The position numbers were made by a program, and so were the translations under genes. Positions 52,569 through 58,445 of a stretch of 64,000 bases of DNA are shown here, piece after piece. The stretch lies in the NCBI RefSeq assembly GCF_014217855.1, contig NZ_CP059059.1, forward strand, positions 2,232,001 through 2,296,000, written 5' to 3'. Under the pieces are notes generated by a model. That model was not told where the DNA came from, ran no database searches, and worked only from the letters and a program-made list of their open reading frames with translations. Position 1 is the first letter of the stretch; every line of letters starts with the position of its first letter. The DNA comes from Synechococcus sp. HK01-R (GTDB lineage Bacteria > Cyanobacteriota > Cyanobacteriia > PCC-6307 > Cyanobiaceae).

Positions 52569-52927
52569 GGCTGCCATGCCCCTTCAGGACGGTCAATCCG
52601 TACGGGACGATTGCTCTGCGCTCGAAGCCAGCGAAGATCCCCCGCCACATCAGCTGCGGTGCGGGCGCTGGAAGGCATCAGCACCACAACGGAAGGCTTC
52701 GGGCTCGACTGGCGAAGCGAGCGGGACAGGACCGCAGCAGACACCGCATCACCGTTGAGATACCAACTGCCAGTTGCGGAGCGGACCACCAACCATTGGC
52801 GGGTCGCCGGCGTGGGCTGCCCTTCAGCGAAGGTGTCGAGCCGTGGAGAGGAGAGCAGACCAGGAAGCACAGCCAGCAAGGTGCTGAGGCTGAGCACTGC
52901 AACGCAAGTGGCGAGCAGGAAAGGCAT
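52565..52927 (-). CDS. ExbD/TolR-like protein 1
   Basis: A 120-residue protein with one N-terminal membrane helix and a small soluble domain (RQWLVVRSATGSWYLNGDAV, then SVVVLMPSSARTA), resembling ExbD/TolR. As in its neighbour, no Asp lies in the membrane helix. Its ATG overlaps the ExbB-like stop (ATGA, 52925-52929 region). Confidence 0.6.
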   Translation of the reverse strand: MPFLLATCVAVLSLSTLLAVLPGLLSSPRLDTFAEGQPTPATRQWLVVRSATGSWYLNGDAVSAAVLSRSLRQSSPKPSVVVLMPSSARTAADVAGDLRWLRAQSNRPVRIDRPEGAWQP

Positions 52928-53457
52928 CAGACAAGCTGCGCGCGTCGCAGCAAACAGGCCTCTTCGAAGCGGCCGATAACCGCCTGGCGCTGCATCCGGG
53001 TGAGCCTTTGCACGAGCAGGGCGACCAAAGCAATCAGCAGACCCAACACGGTCCCCGACAGAACCTGGCCATAGGCAGCGAGCAGATCAGCACTGCGGGC
53101 GGGGAGCACCAAGTCGGGGCCTAGGGCTTGGAGCAGACGCATGAGGCCCACCACCGTGGTCAGAAGACCAAGGAGGGGACCCAGCACCAGGGCGAGATCC
53201 AGGAGCGGATCCCAACGGGACAGGGAGCGCTCCAGGCGACGCACCAGCAGGTCCTGGTGGAGAGACTGCTGAGATGGACGACAACTGTCGAGCTCGGCGA
53301 GCCATCCATCCAGCCGCTGATCCTGCCGTTGACGCCATTGCCACCAGAACAGAATCCGGTCGACCGCCACGGCCACTACGGCGATCGAAAGCAACAACAG
53401 GGGCACGATCAACAGACCTGCCTGGCGGAGGGAGTCAGCGCTCAGCACAACTGCCAT
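52927..53457 (-). CDS. MotA/TolQ/ExbB-type proton channel protein
   Basis: A 176-residue protein with three membrane helices (about 15-38, 80-105 and 120-150) and the ExbB/TolQ features LGPLLGLLTTVVGLMRLL and LSGTVLGLLIALVALL. It probably forms the motor of an energy-transducing complex with the two ExbD-like proteins downstream; all four genes overlap or abut, so they form an operon. Confidence 0.85.
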   Translation of the reverse strand: MAVVLSADSLRQAGLLIVPLLLLSIAVVAVAVDRILFWWQWRQRQDQRLDGWLAELDSCRPSQQSLHQDLLVRRLERSLSRWDPLLDLALVLGPLLGLLTTVVGLMRLLQALGPDLVLPARSADLLAAYGQVLSGTVLGLLIALVALLVQRLTRMQRQAVIGRFEEACLLRRAQLV

Positions 53458-53467
53458 CAGGTCCCAA

Positions 53468-54301
53468 TCATGCAGACCCTAAAGAGGGCCACTGAACGGT
53501 GCTGTTGCTCACTTGCTTGACAGGAGCGCGTTGACGCCGCAACCCCTCCCATCCCGTGAGCAAGGCCGCAGACACCAGCAGGACAGCGAAGCCGATGCGG
53601 AGCTGGCGGTCCTTGAGATGGGGCGCCAGGGCCTGGCCGAGCAGCCCCCCCGCAGCACCGCCGATCAAGAGGGGGATCACGAGGGGTAAGCGTTCGGCAG
53701 GCCAGTGACCCAGGGCACCGAGGGCCACCAGACTGTTCAGGGCAATCAGCACCAGGCTGGTGCCGCTCGCCAGCTGCATCGGCAGGCCGGCCAAAAGCAC
53801 AAGGGCGGGCACGATCGCAAAGCCGCCACCAACGCCTGCAATGCCCGTCAGCAAGCCCACCAACACCCCCTGCAGCATCAGGGCCGGTGCTCGCACCGTG
53901 GCAGCGGCAACCGCAGGCTCGTCGTCCGCTCGATCCGATCGCTTCTGGCGACTCAGCATCAACCAGGCCGCCAGCAGGGCCGCGACGGCAAACACAGCCA
54001 GCTGCACCGGTTCGGCGATCCAGCCGGCCTTCACCATCGTGCCTCCGATCCAGGCCCCCACCAGGGCAGGCACCCCCAGGAGCAGGGCCGGACGGGGCGC
54101 GACGAGGCGACGGCGCAGGTAGGGCAGCAGGTTGGCGATCGCCAGCAGGGTCACCACCACCAGCGAGAGAGGAACCGCATCGCGGGTGGAGAGGCCGGCT
54201 CCCGTCACGAGGATGGGAAGCAGCAGGATCGAGCCACCGGCACCGAGCACCGCCAACAGAAAACCGATCACACCACCGCCGAGAAGCAGCAGCGCGATCA
54301 C
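53468..54301 (-). CDS. TauE/SafE family sulfite/sulfoacetate-type exporter
   Basis: A 277-residue membrane protein with about eight helices and the family repeats GGGVIGFLLAVLGAGGSILLLP and GLLTGIAGVGGGFAIVPALVL. TauE/SafE proteins export sulfite or other organosulfur anions. GTG 54301 is chosen because it overlaps the upstream rhodanese stop (GTGA). With its neighbours it fits a reactive-sulfur detoxification unit. Confidence 0.85.
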   Translation of the reverse strand: MIALLLLGGGVIGFLLAVLGAGGSILLLPILVTGAGLSTRDAVPLSLVVVTLLAIANLLPYLRRRLVAPRPALLLGVPALVGAWIGGTMVKAGWIAEPVQLAVFAVAALLAAWLMLSRQKRSDRADDEPAVAAATVRAPALMLQGVLVGLLTGIAGVGGGFAIVPALVLLAGLPMQLASGTSLVLIALNSLVALGALGHWPAERLPLVIPLLIGGAAGGLLGQALAPHLKDRQLRIGFAVLLVSAALLTGWEGLRRQRAPVKQVSNSTVQWPSLGSA

Positions 54302-54825
54302 GGGCGCACCTGATTCCAGGGCATGGCAGCCAGCAGTCGGGCCATCCCGCAGAAACCACTGATGCCGGCAAACATCAAGCCGGCACCGACAAAGCCACTG
54401 AGCCAGATCCAGCCCGGTGCCACCAGCACCGAGAGGAGCACGCCAGCGAGCACCAGGCCACCGGCCACGATCTGCACCTGACGCATCAGGGGCAACGGCG
54501 CCCCCTTGCGCTTCTCCACGGGAAGACCGGCCTGCTGCCAAGCCAGCATGCCGCCCTCCAGATCCGCGAGACCTTCGCCGAAGCCCTTGGCGCGCAGAGC
54601 CGCCATCCCCCGCTCACTGCGGGCACCGCTCTGGCACACCAGCACTACAGGGGCGGAGGGAAGTGGCGCCTGGGTGAGCTGACCGAGGGGCACATTGCGG
54701 CTGCCGGCGATGTGGCCGCCGACGTATTCCATCGGTTCACGTACGTCGATCACGCTGACGCGACCCTGGCGCAAACGGTCCTGCAATTCGTGGGGACTGA
54801 GACGCAAGGGAGTGGTGCTGGTCAT
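54298..54825 (-). CDS. Rhodanese domain + DUF2892 membrane protein
   Basis: A 175-residue protein. The N-terminal rhodanese domain carries VSVIDVREPMEY and the active-site Cys64 in VCQSGARSE; the C-terminal third has two membrane helices of the DUF2892 type (GLMFAGISGFCGMARLL). It probably transfers sulfur from persulfides at the membrane. Upstream of the exporter (GTGA overlap) and downstream of the MBL-rhodanese gene. Confidence 0.88.
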   Translation of the reverse strand: MTSTTPLRLSPHELQDRLRQGRVSVIDVREPMEYVGGHIAGSRNVPLGQLTQAPLPSAPVVLVCQSGARSERGMAALRAKGFGEGLADLEGGMLAWQQAGLPVEKRKGAPLPLMRQVQIVAGGLVLAGVLLSVLVAPGWIWLSGFVGAGLMFAGISGFCGMARLLAAMPWNQVRP

Positions 54826-54898
54826 GGCGAAGGGAAGGGGTGAATGGGAAGGGGAAGGGAGGCGATGAATCGACCCAGGGAAGCAGGGCCGGTACCGC

Positions 54899-56011
54899 TC
54901 AGACGCTCAGGGGTTCGGGCATGGGCAGCCCTTTGCGATACCAGTCCTGAAGTCCGCCGCGCAGGTTGGCGACCTTCTTGAAACCAGCCTTGACCAACTG
55001 CTGGGTCGCCAGGGCGGAACGGCTACCGGCATGGCAGAACACCACGGTGGCAGCCTCCGGATCGAGCCGATCGAGATGCTCCGCCAGCTCGGGCAGAGGG
55101 ATGTTGCGGCTGCCAGGCAGCGCGCCATCCGGCCCCTTGGCTTCATCGGCGTTGCGAACGTCGAGAATCGTGAGCTCGGCGAGATGGTCGGCGACCCACT
55201 CGGGCTCCAGCTCCGGCAGGCCGGAGTAGCTGCGCTTCAACGGTGCCCAGGCGGGTTGGTCCGGCCCATCGATCCGGGGGCGGCCACTGCGCAGATTCGC
55301 CGGCAGGGCCTGGGCGATGCGATGGGGGTGGGGAAGCTTGAGTGAGTCCATGTGAATCACGAAATCCCGCTCATCGGCCCCACCACCCAGACGGGCGTTG
55401 AGGGCACGCTCCTCGGCAACGCTGGTCACCTGACGACCGCTGTAGTCGTGGCCGGGATAGAGAAGGCACTGATCGGGCAGGGAGAGGATCTGCTCGGTGA
55501 TCGAGCGGTAGAGCGTGCGCGCATCTCCCTGCTGGAAATCGGAGCGGCCGCAACCTCTGATCAGGAGAGCGTCTCCGGTGAAGGCCGCACTGAGATCGTC
55601 GAGCACATAGGTGAGACAACCGTCGGTATGTCCTGGAGTGGCACGCACCTCCAGGGCCCGAGCACCGAAGGCGACCCGATCGCCATGGCCCAGCGGAAGG
55701 GTGACATGGACAGCCCGAGCAACCGTGGCCAGGCCGATGTCTGAACCCGTGGCCTCATGCATCAACCAACTGCCCGTGACATGGTCGGCGTGGGCATGGG
55801 TATCCAGGCAGGCGACAAGGTGAACGCCAAGCTCTCGCAGGAGAGCCAGATCACGCTCATGGCGCTCGAACACAGGGTCGATCAGCACACCCTTGGTCGA
55901 GGGGACATCCACCAAGAGGTAGGTGAAGGTGCCGGTCTCTGCATCGAACAACTGGCGCAGAAGCAGCGAGGTCCCTCCAGCGGCGCTGAGGAGCAGCGGA
56001 GCAGCAACCAT
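54899..56011 (-). CDS. MBL-fold persulfide dioxygenase-like + rhodanese fusion
   Basis: A 370-residue fusion. The metallo-beta-lactamase domain carries THAHADH (71-77), GDALLIRGCGRSDFQ and PGHDYSGR, typical of ETHE1-type persulfide dioxygenases; the C-terminal rhodanese domain carries Cys326 in FCHAGSRSA. It probably oxidises glutathione persulfide to sulfite and moves sulfane sulfur. First gene of the cluster reading away from its candidate operator at 56029-56050. Confidence 0.88.
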   Translation of the reverse strand: MVAAPLLLSAAGGTSLLLRQLFDAETGTFTYLLVDVPSTKGVLIDPVFERHERDLALLRELGVHLVACLDTHAHADHVTGSWLMHEATGSDIGLATVARAVHVTLPLGHGDRVAFGARALEVRATPGHTDGCLTYVLDDLSAAFTGDALLIRGCGRSDFQQGDARTLYRSITEQILSLPDQCLLYPGHDYSGRQVTSVAEERALNARLGGGADERDFVIHMDSLKLPHPHRIAQALPANLRSGRPRIDGPDQPAWAPLKRSYSGLPELEPEWVADHLAELTILDVRNADEAKGPDGALPGSRNIPLPELAEHLDRLDPEAATVVFCHAGSRSALATQQLVKAGFKKVANLRGGLQDWYRKGLPMPEPLSV

Positions 56012-56028
56012 GACAACCTCAAATTGCT

Positions 56029-56050
56029 GTTATGAGCTTACACGCATAAC
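56029..56050. promoter_or_regulatory. Candidate ArsR-type operator before the MBL-rhodanese gene
   Basis: GTTATG (56029-56034), a 10-bp spacer, and CATAAC (56045-56050): a perfect 6-bp inverted repeat. It lies 18-39 bp before the MBL-rhodanese ATG. It shares spacing and the ATG-N10-CAT core with a second site at 56684-56699, upstream of the regulator gene. Confidence 0.55.
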
Positions 56051-56058
56051 GGCATCGA

Positions 56059-56658
56059 TCAGATTTTCCGGCCTCGCAGCTGCACAACAGCGCTCTCTCC
56101 CTGGTGATAACGCCCTTCCCTGATCAAGCGGCGACGCTCCCGCAGGATCTCGAGCCGCAGTCCAGACAACTCACGCTCCAGCTGATCGGGTTCCACCAGC
56201 AAGTCCAGCGATGGGGGACCACCGCTTCCAAGCCCCAGCTGCCTTGGGGTGTAAGCCTCCAGCAACAACACACCGCCAGGGCGCAGCGCGCAGACCGAGG
56301 CCGCCAGCACCTGTGCTCGCAGGGGTGGCGGCAGATGCATCCAGATCGCCACCACAAGATCCACGCTCCCCGGCTCAGGCCGCCAGTCGGCAAGGTCACC
56401 TTGCTGGGTCTTCAGGGACAGCCCCCTGGACTCCGCCAGGGCCTGAGCTTTGTCGAGCCCCACAGCACTCAAATCCTGAGCTGTCACGTGATGACCGAGC
56501 GCCGCCAGGTGCACGGCGTTACGCCCCTCACCTTCTGCCAGGCAAAACGCATCCCCTACCGGAAGCTCCGCGGCCTGTTCGCGCAGGAAGTCGTTGGGCT
56601 GGTCGCCATAGGCAAACCCCTCCTCCCGGTAGCGCTGATCCCAATACAAGACGTCCAT
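56059..56658 (-). CDS. Class I SAM-dependent methyltransferase
   Basis: A 199-residue methyltransferase of the TehB-like type: WDQRYREEGFAYGDQPNDFL, FCLAEGEGRNAVHLA (SAM-binding) and IWMHLPPPLRAQVL. Likely methylates small thiols or metalloids; the sulfur-detoxification neighbours make sulfide or thiol methylation an attractive guess. ATG 56658 is chosen; ATG 56682 is also possible and would overlap the candidate operator. Divergent from the ArsR gene. Confidence 0.8.
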   Translation of the reverse strand: MDVLYWDQRYREEGFAYGDQPNDFLREQAAELPVGDAFCLAEGEGRNAVHLAALGHHVTAQDLSAVGLDKAQALAESRGLSLKTQQGDLADWRPEPGSVDLVVAIWMHLPPPLRAQVLAASVCALRPGGVLLLEAYTPRQLGLGSGGPPSLDLLVEPDQLERELSGLRLEILRERRRLIREGRYHQGESAVVQLRGRKI

Positions 56659-56683
56659 GGAGCCGTAGCGATCCAACTGCATA

Positions 56684-56699
56684 ATGCCTGTATCGGCAT
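56684..56699. promoter_or_regulatory. Candidate ArsR-type operator between methyltransferase and regulator genes
   Basis: ATGCC (56684-56688) and GGCAT (56695-56699) form a perfect inverted repeat; the ATG-N10-CAT core (56684-56699) matches the site at 56029-56050. It lies 11 bp before the regulator ATG and just before the methyltransferase, so a repressor could control both. Confidence 0.5.
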
Positions 56700-56709
56700 A
56701 GGAGGGAGG

Positions 56710-57072
56710 ATGGCGGGAAAGGCAGGGTCTGCGGAGGGCTGCACCATCAGCCAGCTCTCCCCGGAGATGGTGGAGGAGCTCAGTGGCTTTTTCCGGTTGC
56801 TCGGCGAACCGGCGCGGCTGCGTTTGATGTGCGAGATCCGCAATGGCAGCAATGATGTCGCCACGCTGATGGAGCGCACGGGCTTCAGCCAGTCGCACCT
56901 CAGTCGCCAGCTCGGACAACTGCAGAAAGCCGGGCTCGTGCAGGTGGAGCGGGATGGGAACCGCTCTCTGTATACCGCCACCGATCCGGTGGTCGAAGCC
57001 ATCTGCCAGCTGGCGCAGGAGCGGCTGATGACCCACCTGCGCCGGCGTCTCGACAACCTCAGAGCCGCCTGA
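56710..57072 (+). CDS. ArsR/SmtB family regulator, SqrR/BigR-like
   Basis: A 120-residue winged-helix regulator: FFRLLGEPARLRLMCEIRNG and SQSHLSRQLGQLQKAGLVQVERDGNRSLY. The metal-site ELCVC-type motif is absent. Instead it has Cys11, Cys41 (RLMCEI) and Cys99 (EAICQL), close in position to the persulfide-sensing cysteines of SqrR and BigR. A strong Shine-Dalgarno site precedes ATG 56710. It probably represses the flanking sulfur genes. Confidence 0.88.
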   Translation: MAGKAGSAEGCTISQLSPEMVEELSGFFRLLGEPARLRLMCEIRNGSNDVATLMERTGFSQSHLSRQLGQLQKAGLVQVERDGNRSLYTATDPVVEAICQLAQERLMTHLRRRLDNLRAA

Positions 57073-57083
57073 GCCGCCCCAGC

Positions 57084-58445
57084 TCAGGCCATCGTGACGA
57101 ATTCCTCCGAGATCGTGGGGTGCAGCGCCATCGTTCGATCGAAATCGGCCTTAGTGGCGCCCATGCCAACGGCGATCGCGGCCATCTGAATGATCTCGGC
57201 CGCATGCTCACCCACCATGTGGCAACCCAGCACCCGATCAGTCGAACGTTCCACAACGAGCTTGAGGAGACAACGAGGCCCCCGCTGAGGCAAAGCCTGC
57301 GCCATGGAGCGGAACCGAGCCCGATGGACCACGACAGCCTCACGGCCATATCGCTCAACCGCCTGCTCCTCACTCAGCCCCACCGTGGCCAACTCCGGCT
57401 GACTGAAGACTGCACTAGCCACGAGCTCATGGTTGACCTGCCGAGGAGCCTGACCAAAGACGCTGTCGGCATAGGCGCGCCCTTCATCCACCGCCACCGG
57501 CGTGAGACAGATCCGATCGGTCACATCGCCGACGGCATCAATCCCGGGAACATTGGTGGCCTGCTGGGCATCGACCGGAATGCGATGACCTTCGACCGCC
57601 ACCCCAGCAGCCTCCAAATTGAGGCCATCAAGGAAGGGACGCCGACCGGTGGCTAGCAACACACCACCGCAGGAGAACGTTTCGCCCGACTGACTGAGGA
57701 CCTTAAGGGCGCCTGGGGCTCCGCTGATGGCCGCCGGACTGTGGCAGAAGCGCAGATCGATGCCTTTCTCCTCCATCCCTTCCTGCACCACCGCCGAGAG
57801 CTCGCGATCGAAGCCGCGCAGCAAGTGGTCGCCACGCACCAGCTGGGTCACCTGCACCCCTAAGCCACTGAGAATGCAAGCGAATTCACAGGCGATGAAA
57901 CCGGCACCGACCACCACCACATGGCTGGGGAAGCCTTCCTGCAGAAACATGTCATCGCTCACCCAAGCCAACTCAGCACCGGGAATCTCCGGGCGATGGG
58001 GACGACCTCCGACGGCGATCAAGACCCGCCCAGCCTGCAGGACCTGATGGGCTTCGGCTCCGGGCATCGCCGAGACGGCGATGTGATTCGCATCCTGAAA
58101 GCGCCCCCAACCCGAAACGAGTGTGACCCCGGCCTTCTCGAGCAAGCCGATGTGAAGCGTGTTCAGTCGATCCACCTCCCGGCGCACATTGGCCAGCAAC
58201 TGCGCCGAACTGAAACGCGCACCAGCGATCTCCACCCCGTAGGCAGGAGCTTCATCGAGCTGCTCTCGCACCCTGGATCCGTAGACCAGGAGCTTCTTGG
58301 GCACGCAGCCGCGAATCACACAGGTCCCGCCGACCCGATCCCCCTCCACGATGGCGACCCGAGCACCATGGCGGGCGGCCCGCTTTGCAGCAGCCAGGCC
58401 CCCCGAGCCAGCGCCAAGAACCACGAGGTCAAAGGAGGTCTGCAT
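57084..58445 (-). CDS. gor: Glutathione-disulfide reductase
   Basis: FAD-dependent reduction of glutathione disulfide; 453 residues. The FAD motif GAGSGG lies at 11-16, the redox pair is Cys42/Cys47 (GGTCVIRGCVPKK) and the C-terminal MALHPTISEEFV carries the catalytic His. Its neighbours handle glutathione-bound sulfur, so glutathione supply fits the cluster. Convergent with the regulator gene 11 bp away. Confidence 0.95.
   Translation of the reverse strand: MQTSFDLVVLGAGSGGLAAAKRAARHGARVAIVEGDRVGGTCVIRGCVPKKLLVYGSRVREQLDEAPAYGVEIAGARFSSAQLLANVRREVDRLNTLHIGLLEKAGVTLVSGWGRFQDANHIAVSAMPGAEAHQVLQAGRVLIAVGGRPHRPEIPGAELAWVSDDMFLQEGFPSHVVVVGAGFIACEFACILSGLGVQVTQLVRGDHLLRGFDRELSAVVQEGMEEKGIDLRFCHSPAAISGAPGALKVLSQSGETFSCGGVLLATGRRPFLDGLNLEAAGVAVEGHRIPVDAQQATNVPGIDAVGDVTDRICLTPVAVDEGRAYADSVFGQAPRQVNHELVASAVFSQPELATVGLSEEQAVERYGREAVVVHRARFRSMAQALPQRGPRCLLKLVVERSTDRVLGCHMVGEHAAEIIQMAAIAVGMGATKADFDRTMALHPTISEEFVTMA

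Follow-up and report, generated by a model that had tools for sequence, protein, structure and literature searches.

Gene organization of the block

The stretch analysed here comprises 64,000 nucleotides of the genome of Synechococcus sp. HK01-R (NZ_CP059059.1, positions 2,232,001 to 2,296,000; hereafter the window), in which a first-pass annotation made from the sequence alone had proposed a reactive-sulfur cluster under an SqrR/BigR-like regulator with two matching operators. Our subject is this ArsR-type regulator, the two putative operators and the neighboring sulfur operon, which, judging from genome comparison, form a genuine and conserved regulon for reactive sulfur, headed by an ArsR lineage whose cysteine pair is a variant one. 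Coordinates are those of the window unless a genome is named.

The regulator gene (56710-57072, plus strand) encodes a protein of 120 amino acids that matched HTH_5 with 37.3 bits and contains, as annotated, Cys11, Cys41 (helix 2) and Cys99 (helix 5). Divergent from it, four genes lie on the minus strand, encoding a methyltransferase (see below), an ETHE1-type persulfide dioxygenase (PDO) with a C-terminal rhodanese fusion (PRF; 54899-56011), a rhodanese with a YgaP-like membrane segment (54298-54825) and a predicted TauE/SafE-family exporter (53468-54301). Putative operator site A, GTTATG-N10-CATAAC (56029-56050), is located within the 47-nt gap between the methyltransferase and PRF genes, and putative site B, TAATGCCTGTATCGGCATAG (56682-56701, with its ATG-N10-CAT core at 56684-56699), between the starts of the methyltransferase and regulator genes. 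Both inverted repeats were present where the first-pass annotation had seen them, and the fusion of a metallo-beta-lactamase with a rhodanese, the rhodanese-DUF2892 protein and the exporter that it had named in the block were likewise recovered.

The predicted activities of the operon point to sulfane-sulfur chemistry. PRF matched BpPRF over residues 12-361 (374.8 bits) and human ETHE1 (236.1 bits), and it combines an ETHE1-type domain carrying the metal-site motifs with a rhodanese carrying CxxGxR. Both the active-site motifs and the rhodanese cysteine are kept in this full-length match, and no difference of kind from BpPRF was seen at the sequence level. Among 64 PRF proteins of the family, TH.HADH was found in 63, TPGHT in 63, P.HDY in 64 and the rhodanese cysteine motif in 62. 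The second rhodanese scored 67.3 bits with PF00581 and 30.5 bits with PF11127 (YgaP-like_TM, the former DUF2892), compared with cut-offs of 22.2 and 25.3 bits, and the exporter scored 137.7 bits with PF01925. The tauE gene probably begins with the GTG at 54301, where it overlaps the stop codon of the preceding rhodanese gene. Directly after it lies a MotA/TolQ/ExbB-type gene (52927-53457), which also adjoins tauE in two sister genomes (L035 and L036).

Putative operators and distribution of the gene set

For the comparison of loci we collected 121 regulator loci (40 + 80 and the window), which were reduced to 100 by removing those with the same last 330 nt, a step in which any locus without a scored regulator frame would also have been lost. 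The pattern TATG-N10-CATW was found between PRF and the regulator, as at site A, in 63 of the 65 loci with a divergent PRF gene, and the site B form in 52 of them, whereas the reversed patterns were found in none. In shuffled stretches TATG-N10-CATW turned up on average in 0.17 and at most in 2 of the 65, and other spacings were rare in the same loci (none for 8, 9 and 12, one for 11). Conservation of the two repeats in related genomes, on which the first-pass annotation had staked its reading, was thus observed. The consensus of site A was TATGAccaTAncCGCATA and the reverse complement of site B was TATGaCGaTanAcGCATTATGC; the inner ten positions correlated at 0.71 with site B flipped compared with 0.16 unflipped, and the two sites are thus one motif in opposite orientations. 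It should be noted that within the window a loose form of the pattern (TTATG-N10-CATAA, up to 2 mismatches) occurred 3 times with 4.62 expected, which is not above chance; the significance of the putative operators rests on conservation across loci, not on the window alone.

We also searched 20 chosen genomes with the pattern TATGNSNNTANNCGCATA and obtained 19 perfect places, 16 of which were 17-63 bp from a PRF match. Eight of these 16 PRF copies, from seven genomes (G023, G062, G243, G140 with two, G054, G182 and G044), lack the divergent arrangement with the regulator; they lie in other chromosomal regions, on a different contig or at a distance of 3.5-8.7 kb from it. Because these copies were found via the site, they are informative about the positions of sites but not about how frequently PRF is accompanied by one. 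G243 has sites on both sides of the methyltransferase gene, with the regulator on another contig.

The gene set was then looked for in 300 genomes drawn from the family, with thresholds of E 1e-15 for the regulator and E 1e-80 for PRF. Each was found in 108 genomes and both together in 103 (Fisher 3.5e-67, a value that is too optimistic because the genomes are related). PRF without a close regulator was found in five genomes (G032, G070, G119, G154 and G263), of which the first four had no site at one mismatch or fewer; a looser profile search recovered a remote ArsR protein in G032 (63.1 bits) and G263 (66 bits) and none in G070, G119 and G154. The regulator without PRF was also found in five genomes (G081, G101, G218, G244 and G251), with a one-mismatch site near the regulator in G244 and a different one in G101. 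Within the genus of the window, 7 of 24 genomes had a regulator match, the copy in G101 being decayed and the other six occurring with PRF, and on this gene content the set is a patchy trait there. At the G101 locus (L073) the regulator is shortened as well as decayed, and the genome gave no match to PRF. Among the 100 loci, the closest gene of the cluster with its end no more than 1.5 kb upstream of the regulator was most often PRF (50 loci), followed by the methyltransferase (16), tauE (5), the rhodanese (2) and gor (1); the remaining 26 had none. Outside the family, we examined 23 class-level cyanobacterial relatives, which had scored best when 292 genomes were searched with a profile and do not form a random sample; eight of them were beside PDO and/or rhodanese-membrane genes (flanks of roughly 1.5 kb). 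Two contigs titled Chitinophagaceae (L118) and Bifidobacterium breve (L166), both from metagenome bins, carry a cyanobacterial-type regulator locus and are probably mis-binned.

The regulator and the signal that it may sense

The structure model of the regulator (mean pLDDT 83.9, pTM 0.65) has the ArsR winged-helix fold and superimposed on SqrR (6o8l) with Z 12.3 and rmsd 2.2 over 92 aligned residues, model residues 18-109 pairing with chain residues 18-109. The sequence alignment was likewise ungapped and ended at query residue 105. According to this pairing, Cys41 corresponds to SqrR Cys41, as the proposed SqrR/BigR type would require, whereas SqrR Cys107 falls on Met107. The second cysteine, Cys99, is on helix 5, eight residues or two helical turns before the SqrR Cys107 position, giving a spacing of 58 residues compared with 66 in the SqrR pair. 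Cys41 and Cys99 were invariant in all 100 family loci and all 23 class-level relatives. Position 107 was Lys in 51, Arg in 44, Met in 4 and Thr in 1 of the family loci, and no cysteine was found there in any of these loci or in the 23 relatives, 21 of which have a further cysteine at position 103. Thus, the conservation of cysteines among orthologs that had been presumed was observed for Cys41 and Cys99 but not for Cys11, which had been likened to SqrR Cys9; the latter occurred in just 3 of the 100 loci and can be ruled out as a sensing residue. Position 79, in the wing, was Cys in 88 of the 100 loci but is Val in the window, so that a cysteine there cannot be essential in this regulator.

Model and profile scores also departed from the annotated SqrR/BigR type. 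The NCBIfam BigR model (NF040642) gave 42.2 bits compared with a cut-off of 155, and the family profile ranked Rv0081 (57.5 bits), SmtB, NmtR, Mb0332 and BigR (46) above YgaV (43.1) and SqrR (37.3). The best solved match, Rv0081 of Mycobacterium tuberculosis (45.5 bits with the single sequence), has no cysteine in the aligned stretch and is reported to belong to a largely uncharacterised cluster linked to hypoxia (PMC10509353). In a tree based on 112 columns, the window protein, 14 family proteins and the 23 class-level proteins formed one clade (ultrafast bootstrap 100), the references being fragments and the root set by hand; SqrR, represented by a single fragment, was placed outside it under the same root (ultrafast bootstrap 100). 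From its conserved cysteines, we regard the regulator as belonging to an ArsR lineage in which the cysteine pair is a variant one. The known ArsR persulfide sensors have been described as members of one similarity cluster with a helix-2/helix-5 cysteine pair and an intraprotomer bridge (PMC10509353), and SqrR, SoxR, BigR, YgaV and HlyU are reported to share two cysteines, which in sHdrR are Cys50 and Cys116, 66 residues apart (PMC12423496); our regulator has the first shared cysteine without the second. Like SqrR, BigR, YgaV and HlyU (cluster 4 in PMC10509353), it combines the ArsR fold with a helix-2 cysteine at the SqrR Cys41 position and another cysteine on helix 5, and is encoded beside enzymes of sulfane sulfur and an exporter of the TauE family; unlike them, it has its second cysteine at 99, a TATG-N10-CATA operator and a BigR score far below the cut-off. 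A literature search, whose coverage did not extend to subscription papers, found no printed description of this regulator. The association of arsR and tauE with sqr genes has been reported in other cyanobacteria (PMC11304991), and on that account arsR next to cyanobacterial sulfur genes is not new as such.

The genome comparison shows the gene set, the common operator, the invariance of two cysteines and the linkage of the regulator to both operator and operon; on this comparison the regulator would control genes of sulfide/persulfide metabolism. We infer that it is a repressor rather than an activator and consider it probable, though well short of certain, that it acts on sites A and B until sulfane sulfur modifies Cys41/Cys99, the DNA is freed and PRF, the rhodanese and TauE clear the sulfur. 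In detail, the repressor would bind TATG-N10-CATA-type operators, at site A before the PRF-rhodanese-TauE operon and at site B before its own gene, which would be autoregulated, and the divergent methyltransferase. A rise in sulfane sulfur (persulfide or polysulfide) would then cause modification of Cys41 and/or Cys99, upon which the regulator would let go of the DNA; PRF would oxidise glutathione persulfide to sulfite, the rhodanese domains would relay sulfane sulfur and TauE would presumably export the product. It can fairly be inferred that the cluster detoxifies sulfide or persulfide, as the first-pass annotation had suggested. In support of this scheme, polysulfide is reported to raise pdo, rhod, tauE and cysK2 transcripts in Synechococcus PCC 7002 (PMC12466478). 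In the same strain PerR has also been described as sensing sulfane sulfur (PMC9952342), so that more than one sensor is possible.

Several observations weigh against this mechanism. PCC 7002 belongs to another lineage, and the pdo regulator is not named in the accessible part of that report (PMC12466478). In G263 (89% complete), one of the genomes with PRF in which no nearby regulator was detected, a perfect site lies 45 bp from PRF, and three genomes with the regulator and no PRF (G081, G218 and G251) had no site at one mismatch. Three of the 19 perfect sites are away from PRF (957956 in the own genome, G204:220272 and G253:308532), with no cluster gene near them and a polysaccharide-synthesis gene beside two. 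No TATG-N10-CATA was common to the upstream regions of the 23 class-level relatives, which limits the operator claim to the family, and a sigma-70 scan recognised no promoter at the sites. If the SqrR geometry were kept, the distance between Cys41 and Cys99 would exceed that between the two cysteines of SqrR. Finally, an ArsR paralogue of the own genome (L002), which lacks Cys41 and Cys99, falls inside the cysteine-bearing clade, so the cysteines are not needed by all members.

A broader idea, which we hold only tentatively and think rather doubtful, is that cyanobacteria possess a separate lineage of ArsR sulfane-sulfur sensors with a Cys41/Cys99 pair, in which sulfane sulfur may link the two protomers rather than form a bridge inside a single one, persulfide sensing having arisen a second time, or been rewired, on the ArsR scaffold. 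In CzrA and SmtB, metal ligands on helix 5 of the two protomers come together. By this geometry, residue 99 would be near the two-fold axis of the dimer, which makes a Cys99-Cys99' link conceivable; a direct Cys41-Cys99 bridge within one protomer seems less so.

If sulfane sulfur is the signal, the known geometry of ArsR persulfide sensors would be widened, and picocyanobacteria, which are common primary producers, would gain a sulfide-defence switch. The comparison offers a conserved cyanobacterial regulon with a defined putative operator, a target operon and a shifted cysteine pair.

Other signals were weighed against sulfane sulfur. It is unlikely that the regulator answers oxidants such as H2O2 or disulfide stress, with the sulfur operon as one of several redox defences. 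A cysteine-only sensor in an oxygenic phototroph, the adjoining gor gene and the precedent of RexT of Nostoc PCC 7120, a cyanobacterial ArsR redox sensor with reactive cysteines, would agree with such a role. However, RexT is reported to use adjacent Cys40-Cys41 on helix 3 and an ATTCG-N15-CGAAT operator and to sit with thioredoxin (PMC8960804), whereas our regulator has Met at residue 40, Cys41 on helix 2 of the model and conserved TATG-N10-CATA sites; moreover, the functions encoded in the operon belong to sulfane-sulfur chemistry, and few loci have gor close by (see below). We consider it improbable that the signal is another sulfur species, for instance sulfite or free sulfide, or else a metal or metalloid that binds thiols: BigR is listed in NCBIfam as a sulfite-sensing repressor, the regulator passed the model of the general metalloregulator subfamily (67.6 bits compared with a cut-off of 55) and SmtB is among the best solved relatives, but there is no CxC in helix 3, only D92 is kept of the SmtB/CzrA helix-5 Asp/His ligand set (by ungapped alignment), and the block contains no metal transporter. 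Least probable, and in our view very doubtful, is a sensor truly of the SqrR/BigR type, in which a tetrasulfide would join helix 2 to the end of helix 5 inside one protomer; although the aligned Cys41, the shared fold and a cargo of the same kind as in BigR operons would fit, the lack of a cysteine at position 107, the BigR score and the ranking of SqrR below Rv0081, SmtB, NmtR and others argue against it.

Methyltransferase, gor and other operator-like sites

The remaining gene of the divergent block (56059-56682, minus strand) encodes a SAM (S-adenosylmethionine)-dependent methyltransferase that matched Methyltransf_25 with 54.3 bits and may start at Met9 (56658). Its presence had been annotated correctly, but the TehB-like label is not borne out, with 19 bits compared with a Pfam cut-off of 20.4 and 19.4-26.7 bits compared with 218-303 for the NCBIfam TehB models. 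The best solved relative is Synechocystis Slr1183, with similarity over the full length (170.9 bits, residues 14-207). In the 300 genomes there were 29 matches in 28 genomes; 20 of them were divergent neighbors of the regulator and two more (G062 and G243) were located before PRF, the site in G062 lying solely after the methyltransferase gene, before PRF. No site accompanies the methyltransferase genes of G140 and G024, which lie separately. The sister genome G181 gave no match at the threshold used, and the gene is hence accessory. For Synechocystis, a common trend has been reported for slr1182, slr1183 and slr1184, the last of which is rhodanese-like (PMC5295598). A sulfur-methylating role for the enzyme is a guess, and Slr1183-type methyltransferases would gain a regulatory context.

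The gor gene for glutathione-disulfide reductase (57084-58445, minus strand; NF004776, 526.7 bits compared with a cut-off of 480), which had been annotated after the block, lies beyond arsR and is convergent with it. It can be ruled out as a regulon member on account of this orientation and of its rarity near the regulator: of the 100 loci, some of them cut by contig ends, 11 have it within 5.5 kb.

Operator-like sequences were also noticed at a distance from the block. In two genomes of the same genus, nearly symmetric TATG-N10-CATA sites follow a PF02719 polysaccharide-synthesis gene (G204:C1:220272, L237:2973; G253:C1:308532, L236:3033) and are perhaps the operator of another regulator. In the own genome, two sites 2.1 kb apart, at G000:C1:955826-955843 (L234:2827) and 957956-957973 (L234:4957), the former a near-match and the latter a perfect match to the degenerate pattern, are located among frames without a Pfam match. 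A further one with one mismatch (G000:C1:1744976-1744993, L235:3477) follows a pyridoxamine-phosphate-oxidase-type gene, about 1.7 kb from the cysteine-lacking ArsR gene L002.

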